Positions 3,581-42,179 of a stretch of 64,000 bases of DNA are shown here, piece after piece. Under the pieces are notes generated by a model that was not told the origin of the DNA, made no database searches, and saw only the letters and a program-made list of their open reading frames with translations. Position numbers and translations under genes: made by a program. Numbering within the stretch: position 1 is the first letter of the stretch; each line of letters starts with the position of its first letter. Source of the stretch: Microlunatus sagamiharensis (GTDB lineage Bacteria; Actinomycetota; Actinomycetes; Propionibacteriales; Propionibacteriaceae); assembly GCF_900105785.1 (NCBI RefSeq), contig NZ_LT629799.1, positions 3,844,001 through 3,908,000 on the forward strand. The letters are read 5' to 3'.

Positions 3581-4576
3581 ATGGTGCGATTCGGCTACAC
3601 CCTCATGACCGAGCAGAGCGGGCCCAAGCAGATCGTCGAGTACGGCGCTCGGGCCGAGCAGGTCGGCTTCGACTTCGAGGTCTCGAGCGACCACTACTCC
3701 CCGTGGCTGACCTCCCAGGGCCACGCCGGCTACGCGTGGACCATGCTCGGCGCCGTCGCGGCGCTGACCTCCAGCGTCGAGCTGATGACGTACGTGACCT
3801 GCCCGACGATCCGCTACCACCCGGCCGTGGTGGCGCAGAAGGCCGCGACGCTGCAGATCATCAGCGACGGCCGCTTCATCCTCGGCCTCGGGTCGGGGGA
3901 GAACCTCAACGAGCACATCACCGGCGAGGGGTGGCCTCCGGTCGCCCAGCGCCAGGACATGCTCGAGGAGGCGGCGATCATCATCCGCCAGCTGCACACC
4001 GGCGAGCTGACGACCTGGGAGGGCAGCTACTTCCGCGTCGACTCCGCGCGCGTCTGGGACGTGCCGGACGGCGGCGTGCCGATCGGCATGGCGGTGTCCG
4101 GGGAGAAGTCGATCGAGCGCTTCGCCCCGCTCGGTGACCACCTCATCGCCGTCGAGCCGGACGCCGACGCGGTCAAGAAGTGGGACAAGGAGAAGGGCGG
4201 CCTCCTCTCCAGCGGCAAGGGCTCCCGCAAGATCGGGCAGATCCCGATCTGCTGGGGCACCGACAAGGACGCGGCGATCGCCAAGGCGCACGACCAGTTC
4301 CGCTGGTTCGGCGGCGGCTGGGCCGTGAACGCCGATCTCCCCACGCCGCACGGCTTCGCCGGCGCGACGCAGTTCGTGCGCCCCGAGGACGTCGCCGAGG
4401 CGATCCCCTGCGGTCCCGACGTCGACGCGATCGTCCAGGCCGTCAGCGCGTACTGGGAGGCGGGGTTCACCGACATCGCCCTCGTCCAGGTCGGCGACGA
4501 GGGCCAGCGCGAGTTCCTCGACACCGCCGCGGAGCCCATCCTCGCCGCCCTCCGGGACGCCGCTCCCAAGAGCTGA
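3581..4576 (+). CDS. F420-dependent LLM-class oxidoreductase (TIGR03557-like)
   Basis: A 331-aa luciferase-like TIM-barrel enzyme. MVRFGYTLMTEQ, VSSDHYSPW, YVTCPTIRYHPAVVAQKAAT and ILGLGSGENLNEH are typical of the F420-dependent glucose-6-phosphate dehydrogenase/TIGR03557 group; the GSGENLNEHI loop lines the F420 site. These enzymes transfer hydride between coenzyme F420 and small molecules in the cytosol; the substrate here cannot be read from sequence. Length is normal for the family. F420 use is an actinobacterial trait and supports the taxonomic placement. The gene is monocistronic, followed by two palindromic repeats. Confidence 0.9.
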   Translation: MVRFGYTLMTEQSGPKQIVEYGARAEQVGFDFEVSSDHYSPWLTSQGHAGYAWTMLGAVAALTSSVELMTYVTCPTIRYHPAVVAQKAATLQIISDGRFILGLGSGENLNEHITGEGWPPVAQRQDMLEEAAIIIRQLHTGELTTWEGSYFRVDSARVWDVPDGGVPIGMAVSGEKSIERFAPLGDHLIAVEPDADAVKKWDKEKGGLLSSGKGSRKIGQIPICWGTDKDAAIAKAHDQFRWFGGGWAVNADLPTPHGFAGATQFVRPEDVAEAIPCGPDVDAIVQAVSAYWEAGFTDIALVQVGDEGQREFLDTAAEPILAALRDAAPKS

Positions 4577-4602: not shown

Positions 4603-4661
4603 CCGAGAGGTAGGTTGCCGCGCCCTGTACGCCGGGATCCGCGCCGCAACCTACCGCTCGG
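4603..4661. repeat. Palindromic repeat, copy 1 (subtype A)
   Basis: Left arm CCGAGAGGTAGGTTGCCGCG and right arm GCCGCAACCTACCGCTCGG form an imperfect stem of about 20 bp with a loop of about 18 nt. It shares the GAGAGG and GCCGCAACC variants with copy 2. It may double as a terminator for the oxidoreductase gene. Confidence 0.85.
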
Positions 4662-4705
4662 TCTGGGCTGAGCGCCTGGCACGATCTGCGCCCGCCCCTC
4701 TCTCG

Positions 4706-4764
4706 CCGAGAGGTAGGTTGCCGCGACTTTTCTGCCGGGATTCGTGCCGCAACCTACCGCTCGG
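4706..4764. repeat. Palindromic repeat, copy 2 (subtype A)
   Basis: Nearly identical arms to copy 1, 103 bp further on, with a divergent loop. Arm conservation with loop drift indicates selection on, or recent spread of, the hairpin. Confidence 0.85.
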
Positions 4765-4796
4765 CGGAGGCTGCTGGGTCCTCGTGAAGTAGGGCT

Positions 4797-5816
4797 GTGG
4801 ATAGCGGGACCGGAGCGTTCCGGGAGCCGCACCATCGAGCGGTGACGCGCTTCGAGACCGACCTCGCCGACGCCGTACGCCCCCGTGAGGCGGCCGTCCT
4901 CGACGAGGACGGGATCGCGCCGCACGTGCTGCGCACCCGTCGCTGGGAACGGACCAGCCGCGGGCTGTACGTGCTGGCCGGTGCCCGACGGTCCGCCGCG
5001 CAGCGGATCGTGGCCGCTGCCGCTCTGCTGCCGTCCGACGGGGTCGTCGGCGGCTGGGCCGCTGCGCACGTGCACGGCGTGGACCTCCTCGACGGGCTGG
5101 ACCGCCGGGGCGAGGAGCTGCCCGTCGACGTGCTCCTCCCGCCCGGCCTGCACCGCCAGCACCTGCCGGGCGTCCGCTACCGCCGCGCCACCTTCGCCCC
5201 CGGCGACCGGGAGGAGGTCGCGGGTCTGCCCGTCACCTTCCGGGCGCGGACGGCCGCCGACCTCGCCTGCGGTGCGAGCTCGACGACGGAGGCGACCGTC
5301 CTCCTCGACCTGCTGGTCGCGGCGGGGCTGCAGCCCGAGGAGCTCGAAGCCGTACCGCTGCGCGGGCGACGAGGGGCGGTGCAGGCACGCGAGGCGATCG
5401 CGCTGACGAGGAGCGGTTCGCTGAGCCCCGGTGAGACGCGCCTGCGGCTGCTCTACCTCGAGCAGGCGCCGGACGCGAGGATCCACCTGAACCCGACCCT
5501 GACCGCCCGCGACGGCCGCTTCGTCGCGATGCCGGACCTGTTCGACGAGGACGCCGGCCTCGCGCTCGAGTACGACGGCGCGACCTGGGACGGTGAACGC
5601 TCCGCCGGCCACCGCGACCCCGAGCAGCACCGGGAGGACAACGTCCGCGAGGAGGCCATGGAGCGCCTCGGCGTGGTCGTCGTTCGGGCCGGCGCCGGCG
5701 ACCTCGGCGCCCACCGCGTCCAGACCGCGTACCGGATGCGTCGCGCTCGGCTCGACGGGCTCGGGCGGGACCGGACGCGGGACCGCTGGCTCCTCCGGCC
5801 CCGCATCGAGCGGTAG
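4797..5816 (+). CDS. DUF559-type nuclease-fold protein flanked by palindromic repeats
   Basis: A 339-aa protein of the actinobacterial group with an N-terminal winged-helix/AbiEi-like segment (ERTSRGLYVLAG) and a C-terminal Vsr/DUF559-like domain. The latter shows MPDLFDEDAGLALEYDGATW (D-x-n-E-Y-D, the restriction-endonuclease-like core) and RLGVVVVRAGAGDL. Activity is untested in the family. Start is uncertain: GTG 4797 gives the longest form, GTG 4842 (VTRFETDLADAV) is an equal candidate. Two palindromic repeats lie just upstream and a third overlaps its 3' end; the repeat arm encodes the last residues IER and the TAG stop. Confidence 0.65.
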   Translation: MDSGTGAFREPHHRAVTRFETDLADAVRPREAAVLDEDGIAPHVLRTRRWERTSRGLYVLAGARRSAAQRIVAAAALLPSDGVVGGWAAAHVHGVDLLDGLDRRGEELPVDVLLPPGLHRQHLPGVRYRRATFAPGDREEVAGLPVTFRARTAADLACGASSTTEATVLLDLLVAAGLQPEELEAVPLRGRRGAVQAREAIALTRSGSLSPGETRLRLLYLEQAPDARIHLNPTLTARDGRFVAMPDLFDEDAGLALEYDGATWDGERSAGHRDPEQHREDNVREEAMERLGVVVVRAGAGDLGAHRVQTAYRMRRARLDGLGRDRTRDRWLLRPRIER

Positions 5817-5864
5817 CTTGCCGCGGCTGAACCGGCGTGTCGGGCGCGGCAACCTACCGCTCGG
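5807..5864. repeat. Palindromic repeat, copy 3 (subtype B), supplies the stop codon of the DUF559 gene
   Basis: Left arm CGAGCGGTAGCTTGCCGCGG overlaps the last codons and TAG stop of the upstream gene (stop at 5814-5816); right arm is GCGGCAACCTACCGCTCGG. Subtype B carries GAGCGG and GCGGCAACC instead of the subtype A variants. Confidence 0.85.
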
Positions 5865-5873
5865 CGGAAGGGG

Positions 5874-6536
5874 TCAGCGGTCGGGGCGGAGGCCGACCTC
5901 GAAGGCGAGCAGGACCAGGCCCACGCGGTCGCGGACGCCGAGCTTGGAGAGCAGCCGGCCGACGTGGGTCTTGACCGTGCCCTCGGCCATGTAGAGGCGG
6001 GCGCCGATCTCGGTGTTCGTCGCCCCGGCCGCGATCTCGCGGAGCACCTCGAGCTCGCGGGCGGTGAGGTCGTCGAGGCGGGTGTCGTCGCGGCTCGGCG
6101 GCTCGCCGGGCAGCGTGGGGACGACGTGGTCGAGGAGCCGTCGGGTCGCGCTCGGCGCCATCACCGCGTCGCCCGCCGCGATGTCGCGGATGGCCGAGAG
6201 CAGCTCGTCGGGCCGCGCGTCCTTGAGCAGGAAGCCGCTCGCACCGGCCTTCAGCGCGGCGAAGACGTACTCGTCGAGGTCGAAGGTCGTCAGCACGAGC
6301 ACGCGGGCCGGGTTGCCGTCCGCGAGCAGCCGCCGGGTCGTCTCGACGCCGTCGAGCACCGGCATGCGGACGTCCATCAGGACGACGTCGGCGGTGACTG
6401 TGCGGAGGCGGTTCAGCGCCTCCTGCCCGTCGCTGGCCTCGCCCACGACCTCGAGGTCGTCCTCGGCCTCGATGAGCATCCGGAACCCGCCCCGCACCAG
6501 CGCCTGGTCGTCGACCAGGAAGACGCGGGTCACCAT
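5874..6536 (-). CDS. NarL/LuxR-family response regulator
   Basis: A 220-aa regulator. The receiver domain (residues about 4-120) has the acidic pair VDD, the phosphoacceptor Asp in DVVLMDVRMP and the Lys in FLLKDARP. The C-terminal LuxR-type HTH (about 150-215) contains LTARELEVLREIAAGATNTE and EGTVKTHVGRLLSKLG. It overlaps the kinase gene by 7 bp and is surely its partner, phosphorylated to control promoters that cannot be identified here. No transporter gene of the usual DesKR/LiaRS target type is adjacent; the nearest candidate is the ABC-2-like membrane protein at 8047-8844. Confidence 0.93.
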   Translation of the reverse strand: MVTRVFLVDDQALVRGGFRMLIEAEDDLEVVGEASDGQEALNRLRTVTADVVLMDVRMPVLDGVETTRRLLADGNPARVLVLTTFDLDEYVFAALKAGASGFLLKDARPDELLSAIRDIAAGDAVMAPSATRRLLDHVVPTLPGEPPSRDDTRLDDLTARELEVLREIAAGATNTEIGARLYMAEGTVKTHVGRLLSKLGVRDRVGLVLLAFEVGLRPDR

Positions 6537-11424: not shown

Positions 11425-11483
11425 CCGAGCGGTAGATTGCCGCGCTGGCAAGGGCTTGTACGGCGCGGCAACCTACCGCTCGG
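11425..11483. repeat. Palindromic repeat, copy 4 (subtype B)
   Basis: Arms CCGAGCGGTAGATTGCCGCG and CGCGGCAACCTACCGCTCGG around a loop of about 20 nt. It lies between the convergent sppA gene and the gene at 11494, where it could act as a bidirectional terminator. Confidence 0.85.
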
Positions 11484-37679: not shown

Positions 37680-38144
37680 TCAGAACCAGCGCCCGCTCGG
37701 CCCGAACTCGATCATCTCCACCGCGGGCTGCGTGTTCGGCGCCACGAACGTGAACCGCGGGGCACTCACCGGTGACGGCGCAGCCGGCACCTCGAGCGCC
37801 GCCGCCGGCACCTGGCGCTCGGCCTCCCGCACGTCGACGACCAGCCGCTCGTACGCGAGCCGGTTCCCGACCTGACGAGTGCCCGACATCCACTCGTCGT
37901 CGAGCAGCAGCCGCCGTACGCGCTCGAGGTCGGCGCGCCGCCGGGCGAGCCGCTGCTGTGCCCACCGCAAGAGGGTGGCCGGGTCCGGGGTGTCGTCGAC
38001 GACCAGCTGCTGCCACACCCGTGCGCCGAGCGGACGCAGGAGCGCCTCGATGCGCACCCTGACCGGACGGCGGCTGACGACCCACACGAGCAGGGGCACG
38101 ACCATCACGACCGCGAAGCAGATCGCGTCCAGCGCGTGGTCCAT
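37680..38144 (-). CDS. Hypothetical protein with N-terminal membrane helix
   Basis: A 154-aa protein: one N-terminal transmembrane helix (about residues 7-24, ICFAVVMVVPLLVWVV), a basic stop-transfer sequence, and a largely helical cytosolic domain rich in Arg/Leu (WAQQRLARRRADLERVRRLL), possibly coiled-coil, followed by a Pro/Ala-rich tail. No family is recognised. GC content and codon use match the chromosome, unlike the helicase gene next to it. It is divergent from the helicase gene. Confidence 0.55.
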   Translation of the reverse strand: MDHALDAICFAVVMVVPLLVWVVSRRPVRVRIEALLRPLGARVWQQLVVDDTPDPATLLRWAQQRLARRRADLERVRRLLLDDEWMSGTRQVGNRLAYERLVVDVREAERQVPAAALEVPAAPSPVSAPRFTFVAPNTQPAVEMIEFGPSGRWF

Positions 38145-38306
38145 CGCTCTCCTCGCCGTCGAGGGTGGCGGTCGTACGCCTCGTCCGCCGCTTCGTCCAG
38201 CCTGAACCTGTAGCCCGCCTACGGCAAGGGTCGACCGAAGGTCCGAATGGCTGCTCAGACGGCGGCGAACGTGACAAGCTCGCACCTCCTGAGCGAGGGG
38301 ATGCGC

Positions 38307-41300
38307 ATGGAGCAGGGCCTGTACGAGCAGCTGCTGACACAGCAGCTTGAGCGCGACTTGGCGTCGGGGGAGGTCGAACTTGAGCGCGACGTCGCCGCCG
38401 TCGATCCCGGAGACCAGCCGCACGTGCTCTCGCGGCACGTCGAGTCCGTGCTGCAACGGGTCCTGGCCTCGACGTCAGATCCCCTTCACCGCCTTGACGT
38501 GGTGAATCGCGTCTTGAGTGTCTTGTCGCCGGAGGCCGACGCCGTTGTCGATCCAGCTCGTCAGCTGACCGCCCTTCGTGCGACCACGGCGCCGGGCGTG
38601 GTCACCTACGAAAGGGTTCGCCCGGCGACGCCGTTGTCTGAAGCGGCGCTCCTGACGAATACGAGAGGTGAACCGAGTCTCGGCTCCGAGCTCAAAGCAG
38701 AGCTGGACACGGCCGACGAGATCGACCTGCTGTGTGCCTTCGTCAAGTGGTACGGACTGCGACTGCTCGAGCCTGAACTTCGACGAGGTCGAGAACGCGG
38801 CGCGCCTTTCCGCGTCATCACCACTACGTACATGGGGGCAACAGACCCCGACGCACTCGACCGACTCGTGCGCGAGTTCGGTGCTCACGTCAAGATCCAG
38901 TACGACGCGCATCGAACTCGACTCCACGCGAAGGCCTGGATGTTCCGTCGGCGTACGGGCTTTGACACCGCGTATGTCGGGTCGTCGAACCTCTCGCGAG
39001 CCGCACTGCTCGACGGGGTCGAGTGGAATGTTCGCCTCTCCCGAGTGGGGACTCCTGCTCTGCTCGAGAAGTTCCGAGCCACCTTCGACACCTACTGGAA
39101 CGACCCGAGCTTCGAGTCGTACGACCCCGACCGCGACCGGGACCGCCTGGACGACGCGCTGGCTGAAGGCGCCGGCCGCACCACCCATGACCGCGTCACG
39201 TTGTCGCTCTCGGGTCTCCAGGTCAGGGCCTACCCGCACCAAGAAGCGATTCTCGAAGCACTTGAGGTGGAACGTCGGGTTCACGATCGGCATCGGAATC
39301 TGGTGGTCGCGGCGACGGGGACCGGGAAGACGGTGATCGCGGCCTTGGACTACCGCTCTTTGGCGAACGCGGCGGATGAGCGGCCTTCGCTGCTCTTTGT
39401 CGCACACCGAAGGGAGATCCTGGAGCAATCGCTCCGGACGTATCGGGAAGTGTTGAACGACAGCAGCTTTGGTGAGCTCTATGTCGGGGGCGCCCGCCCT
39501 GAGCGTTGGCGCCACGTTTTCGCCAGCGTCCAGTCGTTGACCGCGTACGGCGTGAGCCGCATCGACCGAGACGCCTACGAGGTCGTGGTGATCGACGAGT
39601 TCCACCATGCGGAAGCGAGGACCTACCGCCGCCTGCTCGAGCAACTCGAGCCGCTGGAGCTGCTCGGTCTCACCGCGACCCCAGAGCGGTCGGACGGCCT
39701 CGATGTGCGGTCGTTCTTCGAGGGGCGTACGGCGGCGGAGCTGCGGTTGTGGGATGCGCTGGGCGCGGACCTGCTGTGCCCCTTCCACTACTTCGCCGTT
39801 GCCGACGGCACTGACCTGCGCCGTGTCGCGTGGTCGCGTGGGCGATACGACGAGACGGAGCTCGCCGGGCTCTACACCGGTAATCGCGCGCGTGCCGCCA
39901 TCGTGCTTCGGCAGCTTCAAGACAAGGTCTTGGACCTCGGCGGCATGCGCGCGCTTGGTTTCTGCGTGAGCGTCTCTCACGCGCGCTTCATGGCTGACGT
40001 GTTCCGCGAGGCGGGCGTGCGCGCCATCGCCATCGACGGCTCGACCCCGGCGATAGAGCGAGCCCAGGCGCTCGCCGACCTTCGCGACAGGCGAATCAAC
40101 GCGATCTTCGTGGCGGACCTCTTCAACGAGGGCGTTGACCTGCCCGATGTGGACACCGTCCTCTTCCTGCGCCCAACCGAGAGCGCCACGCTGTTCCTGC
40201 AGCAGCTCGGGCGTGGGCTTCGTCGCACCCGCGACAAAGCTGTCCTGACGGTCTTGGACTTTGTCGGCCACCACCGCAAAGAGTTCCGCTTTGACCAACG
40301 CTTGCGCGCGTTGACCGGAGAGACCCGACGTGGTCTGGCCCGAGCCGTCGAGCGCGGCTTTCCGTTCTTGCCGTCGGGCTGCCAGATCGCGATGGATCGA
40401 CAGTCTCAGGCGATCGTCTTGGAGAACATCCGACAGCAAGTCGGCAACCGGTGGCCGAATCTTGTTGCCGAGCTGCGCGAGCACGGCGACCAGGACCTCC
40501 CGACGTTCTTGCGGGAGACCGGACTGGAGCTCTCCGACGTCCTGCGCCAAGGTCAGCGGTCCTGGACCGAGCTTCGGCGTTCCGCCGGTCTATCGACACG
40601 AGGTGGTGGCGATTACCAGCGGGAGTTGCTGAAGCGCGGGCGAGCCCTAGCCCACGTGGACGACGCGGCCCGCGCATCGGCCTACCGCAGCCTCCTTGAC
40701 GACGACGCGCCCGGCTACGACGAGCTCAGCCCCCTCGACCAGGTGATGGCGCAGATGCTGTTCTTCTCGCTCTGGCCGGGCGGAGGTGGTCACCCTTCGG
40801 TCGAAGCCGGGCTCACCGAGCTGCGGCGAGAGGCAGCGGTGCGCGACGAGCTGCAATCCGTCGTCGACTTGGCCTTCGACCGTGCGCCGCACGTGACCGT
40901 CCCTGTCCGGGGTGCGCTCCACGACGTCCCGCTTCAGGTGCACGCCACTTATCAGCGCGAGGAGGTCCTTGCGGCGTTGGGCTACGCAAGCATCGATCGC
41001 AAGCCGAACTCGTTCCGCGAAGGCGTGCTCTACGTGCCCGAGATCGATACTGATGCCTTCTTTGTCACGCTGCAGAAGTCCGAGGCCGACTACTCACCGA
41101 CAACTCTCTACCGGGACTACCCGATCAGCCCCACCCTCTTCCACTGGGAGTCGCAGTCGACGACGTCTGTCACCTCGACGACGGGCCAGCGGTATTTGCA
41201 TGGTTCGAGCACCAAGTTGCTCTTCGTCCGCCAGCACAAGTCGGATGAGTTTGGGACAAGCGCGTACTTCTTCGCGGGTCCCGTGCACTACCTGGAGCAC

Positions 41301-41390
41301 CGGGGCGAACGGCCGATCGCCATCACGTGGCGACTCGACCACAGCTTGCCAAGCGACTTCTACCAGCGCGCTTCAGTCGCGGCCGTCTGA
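38307..41390 (+). CDS. PLD nuclease-like / SF2 helicase / DUF3427 protein
   Basis: A 1027-aa multidomain protein. Residues about 110-260 form a phospholipase-D-like domain with one HxK motif (H207, K209; RLHAKAWMF) and YVGSSNLSRAAL. Then comes an SF2 helicase: Walker A ATGTGKT (about 336-342), DEFHH (430-434), LTATPERSDG and QQLGRGLRR. The C-terminus (SPTTLYRDYPISPTLFHWES and after) is DUF3427. The start MEQGLYEQLL is typical of the family and GAGGGG precedes it by 6 nt. GC is visibly lower than its neighbours and codon choice is looser, suggesting transfer. This architecture is often linked to phage defence or restriction; that role is inference. Confidence 0.88.
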   Translation: MEQGLYEQLLTQQLERDLASGEVELERDVAAVDPGDQPHVLSRHVESVLQRVLASTSDPLHRLDVVNRVLSVLSPEADAVVDPARQLTALRATTAPGVVTYERVRPATPLSEAALLTNTRGEPSLGSELKAELDTADEIDLLCAFVKWYGLRLLEPELRRGRERGAPFRVITTTYMGATDPDALDRLVREFGAHVKIQYDAHRTRLHAKAWMFRRRTGFDTAYVGSSNLSRAALLDGVEWNVRLSRVGTPALLEKFRATFDTYWNDPSFESYDPDRDRDRLDDALAEGAGRTTHDRVTLSLSGLQVRAYPHQEAILEALEVERRVHDRHRNLVVAATGTGKTVIAALDYRSLANAADERPSLLFVAHRREILEQSLRTYREVLNDSSFGELYVGGARPERWRHVFASVQSLTAYGVSRIDRDAYEVVVIDEFHHAEARTYRRLLEQLEPLELLGLTATPERSDGLDVRSFFEGRTAAELRLWDALGADLLCPFHYFAVADGTDLRRVAWSRGRYDETELAGLYTGNRARAAIVLRQLQDKVLDLGGMRALGFCVSVSHARFMADVFREAGVRAIAIDGSTPAIERAQALADLRDRRINAIFVADLFNEGVDLPDVDTVLFLRPTESATLFLQQLGRGLRRTRDKAVLTVLDFVGHHRKEFRFDQRLRALTGETRRGLARAVERGFPFLPSGCQIAMDRQSQAIVLENIRQQVGNRWPNLVAELREHGDQDLPTFLRETGLELSDVLRQGQRSWTELRRSAGLSTRGGGDYQRELLKRGRALAHVDDAARASAYRSLLDDDAPGYDELSPLDQVMAQMLFFSLWPGGGGHPSVEAGLTELRREAAVRDELQSVVDLAFDRAPHVTVPVRGALHDVPLQVHATYQREEVLAALGYASIDRKPNSFREGVLYVPEIDTDAFFVTLQKSEADYSPTTLYRDYPISPTLFHWESQSTTSVTSTTGQRYLHGSSTKLLFVRQHKSDEFGTSAYFFAGPVHYLEHRGERPIAITWRLDHSLPSDFYQRASVAAV

Positions 41391-41434
41391 GGGCTGATCG
41401 CCATTCACCGCGGCTTCCGCAGCGTCGAGGACGG

Positions 41435-41507
41435 TGGAGCCTAGGGGACTCGAACCCCTAACCCCCTGCTTGCAAAGCAGGTGCGCTACCAATTGCGCCA
41501 AGGCCCC
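41435..41507 (-). tRNA. tRNA-Ala (anticodon TGC)
   Basis: 73 nt on the minus strand. Acceptor GGGGCCT pairs with AGGCTCC, discriminator A; anticodon loop CTTTGCAAG with TGC; T-arm AGGGGTTCGAGTCCCCT. CCA is not encoded. A TACGAT box at 41531-41536 (minus strand) is a plausible promoter. The 3' end faces the helicase gene, 45 bp away. Confidence 0.97.
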
Positions 41508-41613
41508 GGGCCGGCTGGGCCGGACGGTCGATCGTACGTCGTAGAGGGCCTCGGCAGCGAGCGAGTGCGGTGTAGATGGCTCTGTGAGCGAGGTGGCTTC
41601 CGTTGGGTGCGGG

Positions 41614-41632
41614 CCCTTCGACAGGCTCAGGG
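41614..41632. repeat. 19-bp dispersed repeat between tRNA-Ala and DUF5318 gene
   Basis: Exact copy of CCCTTCGACAGGCTCAGGG. The rest of 41508-41746 holds no gene. Confidence 0.88.
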
Positions 41633-41746
41633 ATCGTGGCTGGCCTCGCGGTGAGGTGCGGCAACGTCGCCGAACCTGTACCTGAAGGTTGGAGCAAGGA
41701 CGCGCTCTGCGCCCCGTGAAACTTAGAAACCCACATCCGCACGACC

Positions 41747-41752
41747 TACCAT
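41747..41752 (+). promoter_or_regulatory. -10 box (TACCAT) of the envelope operon
   Basis: TACCAT ends 7 nt before the ATG at 41760; no ribosome-binding site is present, so a leaderless start is likely. Confidence 0.45.
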
Positions 41753-41759
41753 CGAGCCC

Positions 41760-42179
41760 ATGTGGTCGCAGCGGGAGGTCATCGACTATGCGCTGCAGCG
41801 ACGCCGCACGCTGGAGGGTCTGAAGCGGCCCGGCAAGCGGCTGGCCAAGCTCGACGCGTGCGACGCGGACCCCATGCTGCTGCGGGCGGCGAAGTACCAC
41901 GGGGAGCAGGCCAAGGTGCCGTGCCCGGTGTGCGAGTCACCCGAGATGTACAACCTCAGCTACACGTTCGGCGACCAGCTCGGCCAGTTCTCCGGCCGAA
42001 TCAAGCCGCCGGGCGAGCTCGAGGAGATGGCCCACCAGTACGGCGAGTTCAAGGTCGTCGTTGTGGAGGTGTGCCTGCGCTGCAGCTGGAACCACATGAT
42101 CGTCTCCTACCTTCTCGGCGACGGGGTGAAGCGCAAGCCCCCGCGTCGCCAGCAGACCGTCGAGGACATCTATGGCTGA
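41760..42179 (+). CDS. DUF5318 protein
   Basis: A 139-aa soluble protein found across Actinobacteria. SQREVIDYALQRRRTLEGL opens the family; two Cys pairs (CPVC and CLRC, about 45 residues apart) should bind one zinc ion. No activity is known. It overlaps the penicillin-binding protein gene by 8 bp, and the two are neighbours in many actinobacterial genomes, suggesting a link to cell-wall synthesis. Confidence 0.85.
   Translation: MWSQREVIDYALQRRRTLEGLKRPGKRLAKLDACDADPMLLRAAKYHGEQAKVPCPVCESPEMYNLSYTFGDQLGQFSGRIKPPGELEEMAHQYGEFKVVVVEVCLRCSWNHMIVSYLLGDGVKRKPPRRQQTVEDIYG

Follow-up and report, generated by a model that had tools for sequence, protein, structure and literature searches.

The window analysed here is the whole stretch of 64,000 nt at positions 3,844,001-3,908,000 of a single-contig Microlunatus genome of 4,405,185 bases (the source genome). 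One gene in it is bracketed by copies of an inverted-repeat element, and the following features were placed, in window positions.

3581-4576, plus strand: left neighbour, a luciferase-like monooxygenase gene, which adjoins the response regulator gene in M. flavus, where the intervening cassette is absent
4603-4661, no strand assigned: element copy 1, upstream of the bracketed gene, with arms of about 20 nt and a spacer of about 19 nt
4706-4764, no strand assigned: element copy 2, with 77 nt between its end and the likely start codon
4842-5816, plus strand: bracketed gene, 324 aa, with an AbiEi-like N-terminal region and a putative C-terminal region of PD-(D/E)XK type (MTES_1575/DUF559-like) that was assigned from the homologs
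5807-5863, no strand assigned: element copy 3, with the TAG of the bracketed gene (5814-5816) inside its left arm
5874-6536, minus strand: right neighbour, a response regulator gene convergent with the bracketed gene
11425-11483, no strand assigned: element copy 4, solo, between convergent genes for an S49 peptidase (plus strand) and for a protein with no Pfam match (minus strand)

The start codon is likely to be the GTG at 4842, as judged from the gene call and the alignment of homologs. The element is about 60 nt long and consists of two inward-facing arms near CGAGCGGTAGGTTGCCGCG, separated by a spacer of about 19 nt; all four window copies fold far more stably than shuffled sequences (z −5.5 to −8.0). 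An initial annotation of this DNA had described two hairpins ahead of the gene, a third over its end that supplies the stop codon and a fourth copy of the same palindrome at 11425-11483, and each of these was verified. Its division of the hairpins into subtypes A and B was abandoned, since the split is not clean: a single arm position varies (C in 131, A in 30 and G in 7 of 168 arms from the source genome and M. flavus) and the spacer is hypervariable. At the Rfam gathering threshold, the only family found in the 64-kb window was a tRNA (41435-41507, minus strand). The stretch 38144-41760, about 3.6 kb, is without any called gene.

The window protein was compared with profile libraries together with 19 homologs. 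Its N-terminal region matched the PADLOC AbiEi model (E 1.3e-8, residues 45-165 of the 339-aa reading), and an AbiEi-like N-terminal region was found in 16/19 homologs. Here this region is fused to a nuclease-type region and the associated elements are dispersed, in which the gene differs from AbiEi antitoxins of type IV toxin-antitoxin systems; the neighbours in the window, the luciferase-like monooxygenase and the response regulator, include no AbiEii toxin partner. AbiEi antitoxins bind inverted repeats. The AbiEi-like region might thus bind the elements as operators in autoregulation, with the dispersed copies serving as a regulon or as decoy sites, a reading that is weighed below and that we consider unlikely.

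For the C-terminal region, Pfam DUF559 (PF04480) gave no match in the window protein up to E 10, and the top nuclease match was MTES_1575, at 12.8 bits against a cut-off of 38.2. Among the 19 homologs, weak profile matches were obtained to MTES_1575 (13/19), DUF559 (10/19 at E up to 0.1, best 1.2e-4) and DUF2726 (7/19), which we take to be members of the PD-(D/E)XK-type clan. The homolog set gave no NCBIfam matches. The name "DUF559 gene" used initially is therefore not borne out by a Pfam match in the window protein and survives as a weak DUF559/MTES_1575 similarity across the homolog set. Eleven residues are invariant in the 19 homologs (D247, D250, E258, D260, H272, H278, D281, N282, R284, E285 and E286, numbered from the codon at 4797) and resemble what may be a nuclease centre; with the profile matches, they weakly suggest a nuclease. 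Single-sequence structure prediction of the window protein reached a pLDDT of 32, and among solved structures the best profile match had E 0.11, with no credible relative. Across the class, 112 of 295 genomes have DUF559-like proteins of the bracketed kind; to our knowledge, no substrate has been described for DUF559-like proteins. Next to a second, distant homolog in the source genome (L067, G000:C1:1706500-1718500) a palindrome of another sequence was seen, and only at the stop codon.

The element was counted across the source genome, as the initial annotation had proposed. There are 42 exact pattern pairs and at least 49 copies when up to two substitutions in total are allowed in a pair; the latter number is a lower bound, as it was taken from stretches around exact arms, and four weaker regex matches with 3 or 4 substitutions were left out of it. 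The reversed control pattern gave 0 matches. The distance from GGTAG to CTACC is 47 or 48 nt in all 49 copies. Using gene calls from a purpose-made codon-usage caller, 30 of the copies were placed between convergent, 16 between tandem and 3 between divergent genes. In 246 kb taken from other stretches, convergent regions account for 18.7% of the intergenic bases, which gives 30 of 49 a binomial p of 6e-11; this background lies outside the element-centred stretches, so that the absence of copies from it is no independent test of density. Ten of these copies extend over the end of a called gene, each by the identical 13 nt. The 36 copies examined in M. flavus were similarly placed (24 convergent, 8 tandem, 3 divergent and 1 at an edge; 6 overlap a gene end).

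Such positions, together with the very stable stems, are what would be expected if the palindromes were terminators of transcription in both directions, or some other kind of gene-end element, spreading alone and with no special tie to the gene. At first sight the element and the gene do appear unlinked, because only 3/49 copies adjoin the bracketed gene and the GGTAG family occurs in 3 of 20 genomes of the genus (42 exact copies in the source genome, 8 in G014 and 35 in M. flavus CGMCC 4.6856, G017) as against homologs of the bracketed gene (E 1e-30 or better) in 10 of the 20. Taken alone, the source genome suggests a gene-end repeat that happens to pass by the gene. A single hairpin family tied to such genes everywhere was ruled out by the 3/20 distribution, and a search confined to the GGTAG family would have seemed to break the association. 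No GGTAG-bracketed gene was found in M. flavus despite its 35 exact GGTAG-type copies, and a distant homolog there (on L140) is without bracketing.

Several other occurrences of the pattern were recorded. In the source genome, G000:C1:2265915-2266754 (L072) has two GGTAG-type copies that enclose about 745 bp, in which there is an unnamed, short reading frame. A loose GGTAG..GCAA pattern of constant 49 nt was seen on Lactobacillales contigs (L112, L121, L123, L134, L141, L147, L150, L151, L153, L155 and L156) and may be an unrelated insertion element. Phage carriage is not supported, as viral contigs scanned by pattern yielded no confirmed relative; the palindrome pattern itself had one viral match.

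The link between gene and palindrome became visible when the flanks of the homologs were compared irrespective of sequence family. These flanks carry palindromes of other sequence, and the upstream and downstream copies match each other gene by gene; the arms are, for example, CGAGAGGTAGGTCGC in G014, CTTCTGGC(A/G)GCAGAAG in M. flavus, GAGAAGGAG in G019 and GAATGTGAGC in G011. For each gene, local alignments were made of the upstream flank with its own downstream counterpart and with those of different genes (swapped pairs), and a score of at least 35 was counted as a match. The loci were the top of the match lists and hence a non-random sample: 20 for the genus (19 matches and one weaker), 25 + 39 for the order and 6 + 38 for the rest of the class. 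Duplicates (L187-L191, L217) and loci with the gene at or near a contig end (L277, L279, L289, L322) were excluded.

Matched flanks were found at 112 of the 128 homolog loci, the other 16 falling below the threshold. In the genus and order, 76 of 84 loci matched, against 2.4% of swapped pairs; the median score of the 84 was 66 (swapped pairs, 23), and the mean of 69.5 compares with at most 33.7 in 2000 permutations. In the rest of the class 36 of 44 loci matched, against 2.6% of swapped pairs. The swapped pairs include related loci, which makes this control conservative. Other source-genome genes of 240-420 aa had matched flanks in 1/152 cases, and neighbour genes in the same loci in 1/92, the latter with shorter flanks at locus ends. 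A palindrome-versus-shuffle test was passed by 96 of the 112 matched loci and failed by 16. The gene/palindrome association put forward in the initial annotation thus extends well beyond what the window could show. The alternative named there, that hairpins lie at random with respect to DUF559 genes and track gene ends only, did not hold as to randomness and did hold, as to gene ends, for the dispersed copies (30/49 convergent).

The terminator explanation leaves unexplained why lineage-specific elements are matched at 112/128 homologs and at 1/152 other genes; it also sits poorly with the conservation of the arm sequence described below and with arms that lack covariation within genomes. It is already disfavoured, and we regard it as improbable. 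In the 112 matched loci the matched length has a median of 66.5 nt, and the downstream element starts a median of +3 nt from the stop codon (quartiles −8 and 18). This position at the stop codon speaks against autoregulation, as do the dispersed copies, which lie at gene ends and in divergent regions in only 3 of 49 cases. The relative orientation of the upstream and downstream elements is not fixed (30 direct, 43 inverted and 3 ties, n = 76).

Gene and element diverge together. Over the 76 matched loci of the genus and order, the rank correlation between element similarity and protein similarity was 0.28, against a maximum of 0.12 in 999 permutations. The element was common to 4/4 locus pairs at protein identities of at least 80%, 11/20 at 60-80%, 22/129 at 50-60%, 27/565 at 40-50% and 1/2132 under 40%: gene lineages own private arm sequences, common almost only to close homologs. 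Among 54 protein pairs of at least 55% identity, which are not independent of each other, both flanks were homologous in 38. In these syntenic pairs the bracketed gene averaged 65% identity as against 86% for the proteins on its flanks, which were the more alike in 38/38; the 86% is a conditional mean, since flanks below 65% were not scored as homologous. The elements are alike within one genome and different between genomes at syntenic orthologs. The difference in identity implies that the gene and both its elements change together in place, faster than their neighbourhood, and the predominance of synteny among close pairs implies that movement of the gene is rare.

Dispersal of the element occurs in several genomes. 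In 147 genomes of the order, the occurrences of two arm patterns were counted; as both demand exact 12-nt arms, the copy numbers are lower bounds, and the reversed control patterns gave 0 matches. Pattern TAGTCCCTGACG.. occurred in G043 (16 copies), G055 (11), G064 (19), G067 (1), G121 (3), G129 (15) and G144 (4) and in none of the other 140 genomes, and pattern GAGYGTGACGTT.. in G034 (11), G095 (16), G118 (11) and G124 (18) and in none of the other 143. Both flanking copies of a homolog were among the copies counted in G043, G064, G129, G121, G034, G118 and G124. Six of these genomes (G043, G064, G129, G034, G118 and G124) thus have the flanking copies within families of 11-19 exact copies, and in G121 the flanks account for 2 of the 3 copies. 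The 16 copies of G095 include a single flank from each of two homologs, and in G055 (11 copies) and G144 (4 copies) no flanking copy was among the matches listed. Beside the part in common, the inner arm differs from genome to genome (TAAATCAAG in G064, AAAAGCACC in G129). G014 has an exact variant element at its two gene flanks only and 8 exact GGTAGGTTGC-type copies elsewhere; in the roughly 10% of the M. flavus genome examined, the element of its homolog was found at that gene only. The extragenic position of dispersed copies was checked in the source genome and M. flavus.

The arms of the element are conserved and the spacer is not. At orthologous sites of the source genome and M. flavus (19 comparisons, one source site being used twice), identity was 95.9% in the arms (532 nt), 53% in the spacer (287 nt, with at most five length-different pairs left out) and 59% in the 20 nt outside each arm (760 nt). 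The measurement covers pattern-findable copies only, decayed copies counting as absent. Because the copies had been found through their arms, positions demanded by no search pattern were checked separately at 18 sites: positions −4 to −2 agreed in 107/108 and position 12 in 36/36 comparisons, altogether 143/144, as against 167/396 at 9-19 nt outside the arms. Arm position 11 agreed in 23/36.

Pairing between the arms was examined within genomes. At position 11 the arms pair in 40 of 84 copies from the source genome and M. flavus, with 47 expected, and no covariation was found within G064, G129 or G043; a pooled four-genome set does show a pairing correlation, but it mixes subfamilies of several genomes. 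The lack of covariation within genomes fits two half-sites a set distance apart better than selection for a hairpin, and it lends no support to a folded hairpin as the substrate, stable though the folds are. Arms that behave like half-sites are in keeping with autoregulation as well as with the reading preferred below.

The spacers vary in sequence, keep their length and contain core motifs common to unrelated families. The core GACACGCC recurs between unrelated arms, in 13 of 104 loci as against 0.3 in shuffles. The 9-mer GACACGCCG had 20 matches in 15.5 kb of elements and 1 in 97.9 kb of gene bodies, and occurred in 12 of 112 loci, in lineages with unrelated arms (L031, L092, L192, L199, L202, L203, L207, L216, L218, L222, L227 and L309).

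Gain and loss of the element were assessed by comparison with M. flavus. At four sites the element is present in one species and absent from the other, in which both flanks were found; M. flavus-only copies lie on L137, L143 and L157, and a source-only copy at 3,749,492. Where flanks were available for comparison, 20 or 21 sites have the element in both species, a count biased upward, as mostly element-centred stretches were compared. No insertion boundary or target duplication was readable at the four sites, because the intergenic DNA is too diverged to align.

The cassette of the window, about 1.3 kb, is missing from M. flavus, where the gap between the monooxygenase and response regulator genes is filled by about 65 bp of other sequence that contains a different short inverted repeat. 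About 7 kb away, at 3,840,932-3,841,278 of the source genome (L047), lies an inverted 347-bp duplicate (88%) of the monooxygenase 3' end together with two elements, which stops about 12 nt past the second element. Both the cassette and the duplicate could be read as traces of an IS-like unit of element, gene and element that ends in the palindromes, the solo copies being its non-autonomous derivatives. Such a unit is hard to reconcile with the one to seven homologs (E 1e-20 or better) in most genomes of the order and with the mostly syntenic position of close pairs; nor was a defined end or target duplication readable for it, the M. flavus junction is occupied by other sequence, and the upstream and downstream elements have no fixed relative orientation. 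We consider it quite unlikely.

Among known systems, the closest in anatomy is REP/RAYT (TnpA_REP), with which the initial annotation had compared the locus: in both, a single gene stands between cognate palindromes that are also dispersed extragenically. REP/RAYT enzymes and repeats co-evolve and are largely inherited vertically, according to PMC8266576 and PMC3116915. The comparison stands as an analogy and fails as an assignment. The enzyme is unrelated and has no Y1/HuH domain; the Y1/HuH transposase (PF01797) was absent from the window protein and from all 20 genus genomes, as against 5 positives among 14 control genomes, by which membership of REP/RAYT was ruled out. The GTAG tag lies 5' of the stem in REP sequences and inside the arm here, in the window family and many TAGTCC families; in the order, arms often start with GGTAG or GATAG, and several families are without GTAG. 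The bracketing elements also differ from REP in giving no sign of selection on pairing within genomes. To AbiEi antitoxins the likeness is limited to the N-terminal profile matches, and to DUF559, MTES_1575 and DUF2726 to the weak matches of the homologs (10, 13 and 7 of 19). Titles and opening lines of abstracts on DUF559, AbiEi and actinobacterial REP/RAYT, preprints lying outside this scope, describe no cognate-repeat association, and DUF, RAYT, transposase and nuclease are absent as terms from the main text of a broad REP survey (PMC12306157).

The explanation that we favour, and consider probable, is that the gene and its palindromes are a cognate pair: the protein recognises the arms of its own element, which brackets the gene and can be copied elsewhere. 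Recognition of the element by the protein is strongly implied by the matched, co-diverging flanks and the conserved arms. The AbiEi-like/PD-(D/E)XK-type protein would recognise the two inverted arms of about 20 nt at their fixed spacing, presumably by direct binding, and could cleave DNA there as a nuclease. Further copies of the bracketing element may arise at intergenic sites elsewhere, chiefly at the 3' ends of genes, where they would be tolerated, and the enzyme might drive or maintain this dispersal, working like REP/RAYT. No known family against which the pair was tested accounts for it; the activity of the enzyme is putative. A more far-reaching reading, a close call that we place slightly on the doubtful side, is that of a genome-addressing system found across this class of actinomycetes. 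In it, a fast-evolving AbiEi/PD-(D/E)XK fusion enzyme would act on a bipartite target, the private arms being the address and the common spacer core the reaction site, and would write, move or keep uniform inverted repeats of about 60 nt at gene ends, as a functional counterpart of REP/RAYT built from an unrelated enzyme.

Under the cognate-pair explanation, each bracketed DUF559-like protein gains a named DNA target that flanks its gene on either side and can be tested, and the fast joint change of enzyme and target would provide a natural set of paired specificities. Should the enzyme spread or maintain the elements, a source would be found for a set of intergenic palindromes in actinomycetes, and partnerships of the REP/RAYT kind would have arisen at least twice, from unrelated enzymes.
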